From: Actinomycetes bacterium
GTDB lineage: Bacteria; Actinomycetota; Acidimicrobiia; Acidimicrobiales; Acidimicrobiaceae
NCBI GenBank assembly: GCA_021847985.1
Contig: JAJZNF010000127.1
Location: 1 to 35,064 of the forward strand
DNA length: 35,064 bases
Reading direction: 5' to 3'
Made by a program: the position numbers and the translations under genes. Below are positions 4,134 to 15,774 of this stretch, piece after piece; positions within the stretch are counted from its first letter, which is position 1, and each line of letters starts with the position of its first letter. The notes under the pieces were generated by a model, which was not told the origin of the DNA, made no database searches, and was given only the letters and a program-made list of their open reading frames with translations.

Positions 4134-4379
4134 GTGCTCGTACTGACGAGGCGGGTGGGGCAATCCATCGTGATCGGCGACGATATCGTCGTCACCGTCC
4201 TCGAAGTTCGCGGAGAGCAGGTACGCATCGGCGTCGAGGCGCCTCGCACGGTCGAGGTCATGAGGTCGGAGATTTACAGGGCCGTCGAGGAGGCCAACCA
4301 TGCCGCGGCCCAGTCGGCGGCCGGGGTGCCTTTGGTTCCTCCGGCGGTGGACGAGGGTCCTCAGCTCGCCGAAGGCTGA
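4134..4379 (+). CDS. csrA: Carbon storage/translational regulator CsrA
   Basis: GTG start preceded by AAGGAGGA; MLVLTRRVGQSIVIGDDIVVTVLEVRGEQVRIGVEAPRTVEVMRSEIY is canonical CsrA. Confidence 0.97.
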   Translation: MLVLTRRVGQSIVIGDDIVVTVLEVRGEQVRIGVEAPRTVEVMRSEIYRAVEEANHAAAQSAAGVPLVPPAVDEGPQLAEG

Positions 4380-4864
4380 CCTGTGGCGCGCGCTGAATCG
4401 TAGACAGGCACCTTGATCCGGACGGCGAGTTGGCTTGCGTCCGCATCCGGCTGCACAACCTGGCAGCCGCGTCCGTTGGCGAGGTTGACAACGATCGGAG
4501 CCGCGAGATTCGCGGTCGGGAGGCTCCGCTCCCCGTGCAGGGTGATGAGGACCAGTACCAGGACGCTCTCGGTGGACTCCAGCCCGATCAGTGCCTGGCT
4601 GACATCGTCGATCTCGACGTCGAAGGCGGGCGTGATCGCTGCGGGCTGGGCGACCACGAAGACGGGGTGCTCCCGGCCGGCTGCTTTGAGCGCGAGGTAG
4701 GGGCCGAACTCGGGGCCGAGCGGCAGAAGCTGGAAGGCCTGAACGTCGGTGAAGCCGGGGACGCCGGCGGGGAAGTCGAAGACGAGCCCGGCCGGGCTCA
4801 TGGTCGCCTCCTCGGTCGGCTCGACCGTGGCCGTCGCGTGCATTGACTCTGTGTTCCGGGGCAT
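4361..4864 (-). CDS. fliW: Flagellar assembly factor FliW (CsrA antagonist)
   Basis: FDFPAGVPGFTDVQAFQLLPLG...FVVAQPAAITPAFDVEI...VLITLHG...TANLAAPIVVNLANGRGCQVV matches the FliW pattern; adjacent to csrA. Confidence 0.93.
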   Translation of the reverse strand: MPRNTESMHATATVEPTEEATMSPAGLVFDFPAGVPGFTDVQAFQLLPLGPEFGPYLALKAAGREHPVFVVAQPAAITPAFDVEIDDVSQALIGLESTESVLVLVLITLHGERSLPTANLAAPIVVNLANGRGCQVVQPDADASQLAVRIKVPVYDSARATGQPSAS

Positions 4865-14834: not shown

Positions 14835-14862
14835 TAAAGAAATCCGGCCCTTGCTCCGATTG
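14835..14862 (+). promoter_or_regulatory. Candidate sigma28 promoter of flagellin
   Basis: TAAAGAAA-N12-TCCGATTG, about 80 nt upstream of the flagellin ATG. Confidence 0.6.
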
Positions 14863-14890
14863 ATAGGCGTGCGTTCCCCTGGGGCGCACG

Positions 14891-14940
14891 TGTCAATGGA
14901 TTGACAAGCATTTGCTACTTATCACGGAGGAATTCGGGAG
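14891..14940 (+). promoter_or_regulatory. Candidate two-site CsrA target in the flagellin 5' leader
   Basis: Perfect 6-bp hairpin TGTCAA-TGGA-TTGACA with GGA in the loop (14891-14906), and a second GGA in the Shine-Dalgarno ACGGAGG (14924-14930). Confidence 0.6.
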
Positions 14941-15774
14941 ATGTCTCTCTCAGTCAACACCAACATCTCGGCTATCGACGCCTACAACAACCTGAACGCC
15001 ACCAGCAACAACATGCAGTCGGCGATCTCGGAGCTCTCCTCGGGCCTGCAGATCCAGACCGCTGCCGACAACGCCTCGGGCTATGTCATAGCCCAGGGCC
15101 TGAACGTGCAGGCCAACGGTCTGGGGGTGGCGATCAACAACGGCCAGAGCGCCATCTCGGTCCTGCAGATCGCCGAAGGCGCCATGAACCAGCAGGTCTC
15201 CATCCTCCAGAGGATGAACGAGCTGGCCACCCAGGCCGCCAACGCCGGCACCGCCAACTCCTCTTCGCTGGCCGCCGACCAGCAGGAGTTCGCCGCCCTG
15301 CAGAACCAGCTGGACCAGATCGCCCAGAGCACCCAGTTCGGCCAGACCGCCCTTCTCAACGGCTCCTACCAGAGCGAGTCCTTCCAGATCGGCGCCTATG
15401 CCGCTTCGGCGGACCAGGTGGTGGTCTCCATCGCCACCATGACCTCCTCGGCCATGGGCGTCTCCACCTCCGCGGTCTCCATCGGCACCTCTTCGGCGGC
15501 CATCTCGGCCATGAGCGCGGTGCAGTCGGCCATCAGCTATGTGGCCTCGGCCGAAGCAGTGGTGGGCGCCACCCAGAACCAGATCCAGGCCATCATCGCC
15601 AACGACACGGTGAGCCAGCAGAACGTCCAGTCCGCCTACTCCACCATGGTGGATGCCAACGTGGCCCAGGCTATGACCAAGTTCTCCTCGGATCAGGTGC
15701 TCATGCAGTCGGGCATCGCCATGCTCTCCCAGGCGCAATCACTGCCCCAGCTGCTCCTCAAGCTGATTCCATAA
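14941..15774 (+). CDS. fliC: Flagellin (compact, about 277 aa)
   Basis: MSLSVNTNISAIDAYNNLNATSNNMQSAISELSSGLQIQTAADNASGYVIAQGLN ... conserved C-terminal helix; upstream of fliD-fliS. Confidence 0.96.
   Translation: MSLSVNTNISAIDAYNNLNATSNNMQSAISELSSGLQIQTAADNASGYVIAQGLNVQANGLGVAINNGQSAISVLQIAEGAMNQQVSILQRMNELATQAANAGTANSSSLAADQQEFAALQNQLDQIAQSTQFGQTALLNGSYQSESFQIGAYAASADQVVVSIATMTSSAMGVSTSAVSIGTSSAAISAMSAVQSAISYVASAEAVVGATQNQIQAIIANDTVSQQNVQSAYSTMVDANVAQAMTKFSSDQVLMQSGIAMLSQAQSLPQLLLKLIP

Follow-up and report, generated by a model that had tools for sequence, protein, structure and literature searches.

The window, the whole 35,064-nt stretch analysed here, belongs to a 2.78-Mb draft genome and carries flagellar and chemotaxis genes: an MCP, csrA, fliW, flgL, flgK, flgN, flhA, an SNF2 helicase, flagellin, fliD and fliS, with cheB, cheR, response regulators, cheX, an MCP and cheA. 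An earlier note on this DNA had placed both csrA and fliW here, which profile matches and coordinates bore out (Table 1). A sigma-28 (FliA)-like promoter precedes the flagellin gene. Because its TAAAG and TCCGATTG elements lie upstream of flagellin, the TAAAG-N-CCGAT form recurs at a similar distance in several relatives, and the genome encodes a FliA-family sigma factor (263.8 bits), we place the predicted start of the leader near position 14870. The hairpin described below lies downstream of this promoter and is therefore probably within the mRNA. The TTGACA at 14901 was rejected as the -35 element of a sigma-70 promoter, as a consensus scan returned no such promoter.

Table 1. Positions of the flagellin leader features and of the CsrA and FliW genes in the window
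Feature	Position	Strand	Details
csrA	4134..4379	+	GTG start, 81 aa; PF02599, 81.9 bits
fliW	4361..4864	-	PF02623, 86.7 bits; matches FliW of 5dmb; convergent with csrA, 19-nt overlap
Sigma-28 (FliA)-like promoter	14835..14862	+	TAAAG 14835-14839, TCCGATTG 14855-14862; predicted start ~14867-14872
5'-terminal leader hairpin	14868..14890	+	Strong, GC-rich, separate from the CsrA site; from folding
Candidate upstream CsrA site (BS1-like)	14891..14906	+	UGUCA-AUGGAU-UGACA, ANGGAN hexaloop; GGA 14898-14900
Shine-Dalgarno, candidate BS2-like site	14923..14930	+	CACGGAGG; second GGA 14926-14928; basis, sequence
Flagellin gene	14941..15774	+	ATG 14941, 277 aa; Flagellin_N PF00669, 111.9 bits; Flagellin_C PF00700, 53.1 bits

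Two candidate CsrA sites in the flagellin leader

The leader sequence contains two candidate CsrA sites, the second overlapping the Shine-Dalgarno CACGGAGG. The earlier note had described the first as TGTCAA-TGGA-TTGACA, a perfect 6-bp stem holding GGA in a tetraloop. The palindrome TGTCAATGGATTGACA and its perfect stem are present as described, but a hexaloop describes the loop better than a tetraloop. The top A-U pair is weak and is opened in the centroid of the full leader, so the stem is best read as five pairs closing an ANGGAN hexaloop. The site was predicted to form a hairpin both alone (-4.5 kcal/mol) and inside the predicted leader; in the piece 14885-14945, from which the 5' hairpin is removed, the minimum free energy fold opens the site and the centroid retains the 5-bp stem with its 6-nt loop. 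Fold energy indicated no unusual stability of the leader (z about -1.3 to -1.6) and, being ordinary, was unconvincing alone and was not used as evidence. No Rfam family matched the window or 20 flagellin loci at the gathering threshold.

Such structures are rare in the window. Only two of its 1395 GGAs, counted on both strands, sit in an NGGA tetraloop closed by at least six Watson-Crick pairs. ANGGAN hexaloops with at least four Watson-Crick pairs also number two on both strands (70 kb), of which just that at 14891-14906 lies on the + strand. The second GGA had been put about 20 nt further on, which is true from the hairpin end; the two GGA starts, at 14898 and 14926, are 28 nt apart. It had also been offered as evidence for CsrA, and although it is indeed present, it is uninformative by itself because any GGAGG includes GGA. 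The window Shine-Dalgarno resembles a CsrA site less closely than does the CAAGGAGG found in most relatives. The separate 5'-terminal hairpin, which also occurs in the two closest relatives, is predicted to be an mRNA 5' stabiliser, probably.

Comparison of leaders in the family and the phylum

The earlier note had suggested aligning leaders from related genomes for stem covariation around an invariant GGA loop, and the flagellin leaders of family-level relatives revealed both compensating stem changes and a conserved position. In the two closest relatives, whose flagellins are 96-97% identical, the hairpin is unchanged, and covariation therefore comes from more distant leaders only. At the homologous position, other species assigned to the same genus have CC-AAGGAU-GG within CGUC...GACG, and a sister genus has CCA-ACGGAU-UGG. 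Aligned, these stems differ by double changes from A-U to C-G and from U-A to C-G around an invariant GGA. Hairpins that are unrelated in sequence yet equivalent occur in other genera, such as AGC-AAGGAA-GCU in g6. In four further genera of the family (g4, g5, g7 and g8) the upstream GGAs are kept and a clear upstream stem is absent, with ANGGA retained in g7 and g8. The Shine-Dalgarno itself is looped in g4 (GAAUUC-AAGGA-GGAUUC) and in g6 (UGUC-AGCAGGAG-GACA).

We then pooled the family leaders with those from a sample of 297 genomes of the phylum, giving 66 non-redundant leaders, with the start codon and Shine-Dalgarno of each set by rule. GGA occupied a 6-nt loop closed by at least 4 bp in 23 of the 66, against a mean of 0.97 and a maximum of 5 for the other 63 trinucleotides. 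When any of four loop sizes was allowed, 33 leaders had GGA in the loop of a stem with 4 bp or more, compared with 5.5 ± 2.2 in dinucleotide shuffles. At least one such leader was found in 20 of 30 lineage groups. The commonest loops were ACGGAU, AAGGAU and AUGGAU, and examples include UGUAGC-AAGGAU-GCUACA (L078), GGGGAGCC-ACGGAU-GGCUCCCC (L075), ACCACCC-AAGGAC-GGGUGGU (L107), CGUCGAC-AUGGAU-GUCGAUG (L084) and GGC-AAGGAA-GCC (f50). The spacing from GGA to GGA had a median of 30 (interquartile range 24-39) in hairpins with at least four pairs.

Pairing was also assessed at sites chosen by motif only, that is by ANGGA and its distance to the Shine-Dalgarno (12-50 nt upstream), with pairing ignored. 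Sites of this kind were present in 42 of 63 leaders and absent from 21; their ANGGA is invariant by construction, the unselected test being that of GGA against the other trinucleotides. Over the first five stem positions 72% were paired, compared with 42 ± 3.5% when arms were swapped between leaders, and the first four pairs were all formed at 20 sites compared with 2.7 for swapped arms. The covariation score of this set of 42, unselected for pairing, was 0.562, against 0.194 when shuffled and 0.25 for the best slid control. Two-sided compensatory changes numbered 98, against 49.6 ± 5.5 when shuffled and 56 in the best slid register, the cells counted being related sequences.

Since almost all flagellated genomes have csrA, ruling out a comparison of csrA-plus with csrA-minus genomes, the leaders of other genes served as the control. 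None of 173 non-redundant leaders of predicted reading frames from the same loci had a hairpin of at least 4 bp (Fisher P = 3 × 10−13 against flagellin leaders, ignoring relatedness). This set began as 175, from which two matches that were themselves flagellins were removed. At the level of sequence, the comparison thus establishes a flagellin-specific RNA element with an ANGGA motif and a covarying stem. In several deep lineages (L073, L079, L080, L082 and other f50, f47 and f37 loci), csrA, with or without fliW, lies directly upstream of flagellin, and the hairpin falls in the gap between csrA and flagellin.

CsrA, FliW and the probable control of flagellin translation

Of 48 flagellated genomes tested, 47 had csrA and 47 had fliW. 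In the 297-genome sample, 46 genomes gave a flagellin hit and 45 of these carried csrA, as did 16 of the remaining 251; a profile search of those 16 found flagellin in four, flagellin having been sought in this way in csrA-positive genomes only, which makes the table asymmetrical. The window CsrA has intact RNA-binding residues L4 and R44, a C-terminal extension, and V51 and N55. The last two are mapped FliW contacts in Campylobacter jejuni CsrA, and N55 is required in Bacillus subtilis too (PMC7829508). N55 is lost from CsrA copies away from fliW, namely in genus g6 (L052-L054, L056, L057) and in the second copies of L146 and L148, and likewise from most copies in genomes without flagellin (loci including L175-L177 and L180). 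In the copies without N55, position 55 is T, R, Q, A or K. This pattern fits retention of N55 for FliW, and the copies without it look as though released from FliW control.

Taken together, these comparisons make it very probable that the leader of the flagellin mRNA serves as a two-site operator for CsrA, with the gene under homeostatic control of the Hag-FliW-CsrA type. All the computational predictions tested for the switch proposed in the earlier note held; from them we infer CsrA binding and FliW antagonism. The comparison of leaders and proteins raises the CsrA reading from a plausible guess to a strong inference, and that of a Hag-FliW-CsrA system acting on the window flagellin is well supported at the sequence level. 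A CsrA dimer would dock on the ANGGAN hairpin, a putative high-affinity site, and bridge the 28 nt to the Shine-Dalgarno GGA, blocking 30S binding; this spacing would suit a single dimer bridging both sites. While the hook is incomplete, cytoplasmic flagellin would hold FliW, leaving free CsrA to repress. Once flagellin is exported, FliW would be released and would bind CsrA through a surface including V51 and N55, and the FliW-bound CsrA would leave the leader, allowing flagellin translation to resume. ANGGAN hairpins are high-affinity targets of RsmE, for which structures of the ANGGAN hexaloop form are known (PMC7652899). Counting against the reading are the relatives and phylum leaders that lack a clear upstream stem or the upstream ANGGA, and the poorer CsrA match of the window Shine-Dalgarno; in addition, a stem of 5-6 bp is an imperfect match to the SELEX preference, which favoured stems of at most four pairs (PMC7652899).

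The evidence from the RNA, that is GGA specificity, pairing and covariation, bears on CsrA alone, and would also fit a hairpin at which CsrA represses or stabilises the flagellin mRNA without feedback, with FliW confined to another task, such as that of a flagellin chaperone. The convergent arrangement of fliW and csrA in the family, which means that they are not co-transcribed, likewise favours such a separation. However, fliW accompanies csrA in nearly all flagellated genomes, and the window CsrA retains both V51 and the N55 that copies away from fliW have lost, so we consider CsrA control without FliW unlikely. A role for the GGA loop as a ribosome standby site or a Shine-Dalgarno decoy, rather than as a CsrA site, gains some appeal from the fact that GGA also forms the Shine-Dalgarno core. 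The loops read ANGGAN, though, most of them lacking the GG needed to lengthen the pairing with 16S rRNA, and the control genes have no such hairpins, which renders this explanation very improbable.

Still less credit is due to the two remaining explanations. Being a perfect palindrome of 16 nt close to the predicted start, the inverted repeat could be an operator in the DNA, bound by a transcription factor acting just past the promoter, but the genome has a single copy of it, plus one other site at one mismatch, and in relatives the arms covary around a constant GGA loop, the opposite of what an operator would do; we rejected this explanation on the uniqueness of the palindrome and the covariation of its arms. 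That the window hairpin arose by chance, the class being real elsewhere in the phylum, would agree with the ordinary fold energy and with a stem identical in the two nearest relatives, which hence offer no test by variation. It is nevertheless scarcely credible, given that the sole + strand site of its kind in 35 kb falls in the flagellin leader and that sister species carry a covarying ANGGAN hairpin at the homologous position.

Known systems and gene arrangement

The Hag-FliW-CsrA system and the hag leader of B. subtilis were reportedly described by Yakhnin in 2007 and Mukherjee in 2011. FliW reportedly binds flagellin there through residue N255 of Hag, from which we draw no claim. The system has been reviewed (PMC7652899). 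Like hag, the window gene has two CsrA sites in its 5' leader (candidate sites here), one of them over the Shine-Dalgarno, with CsrA and FliW encoded in the flagellar region and the FliW-binding asparagine present in CsrA. Unlike hag, it belongs to another phylum, its fliW and csrA run tail-to-tail and not in one direction, and its candidate upstream site is a clear ANGGAN hairpin with a covarying stem. CsrA binding has been measured for the C. jejuni flaA leader, where one ANGGA stem-loop is followed by another that covers the ribosome-binding site (PMC4894983). The window resembles flaA in having an ANGGA stem-loop in the flagellin leader, stems backed by compensating changes, and both csrA and fliW, whereas its Shine-Dalgarno lies outside any clear stem-loop and the stem sequences are unrelated. 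A Shine-Dalgarno stem-loop like that of flaA does occur in actinobacterial leaders of family f42 (L081, L083, L090, L095, L096), which have GAC-ANGGAG-GUC hairpins and lack a clear upstream hairpin; these appear to be a one-site or shifted variant.

The mechanism is thus already known from Bacillus and Campylobacter, and CsrA control has been proposed for one actinobacterial flagellin. In 2008 it was suggested for Kineococcus radiotolerans Krad1626 from a BS2-like match at the Shine-Dalgarno, the only match reported in the accessible part of that paper (PMC2587704); the upstream hairpin, covariation and phylum-wide spread come from the present analysis. Actinobacteria were listed in 2015 among phyla possibly using FliW to control CsrA (PMC4682653), and a 2023 survey of actinobacterial flagella queried CsrA and FliW (PMC10746217); the accessible text of these two surveys describes no flagellin leader or RNA element for Actinobacteria. 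We found no description of an upstream hairpin or conserved flagellin leader in Actinomycetota in the open-access literature. What appears new, judging by the sequences compared, is a leader element that is conserved across the phylum and has no Rfam entry, together with the tail-to-tail arrangement of fliW and csrA.

We give roughly an even chance to a wider proposal. The leader would be an undescribed phylum-wide cis-acting RNA element, an ANGGAN hairpin with a Shine-Dalgarno GGA ~20-45 nt downstream; CsrA-FliW control of flagellin would be ancestral to the flagellated members and be the main role of CsrA in the phylum, since csrA is mostly confined to those members; and the tail-to-tail genes of the family may add antisense coupling. 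The details of CsrA-FliW control of flagellin have so far been established in Bacillota and Campylobacterota. Flagellin control has been proposed as the ancient function of CsrA (PMC4894983), and that proposal would gain support if a two-site leader with a covarying stem is indeed conserved throughout Actinomycetota. Such a leader would also provide a simple RNA, ready to test, in a phylum with little-studied flagellar regulation, whose later classes are without FlgM (PMC10746217). The element could merit its own Rfam entry and serve in searches for flagellin genes and further targets of CsrA.

In each of the 24 family loci with both genes (L001, L032-L060), fliW and csrA converge, with stop codons that overlap by up to 19 nt (4361-4379 in the window) or mostly lie within ~50 nt. 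The two genes are also convergent in f21 and f27, and co-directional in most other actinobacteria that have them adjacent. Antisense coupling or RNA overlap of the tail-to-tail pair is possible. The ribosome-binding site of the window csrA (UAUCAAGGAGGACUG) is without a stem of the kind seen in the csrA genes of the family (L032-L060), where a hexaloop hairpin resembling GCGC-AAGGAG-GCGC mostly encloses the Shine-Dalgarno and is likely to serve CsrA autoregulation.
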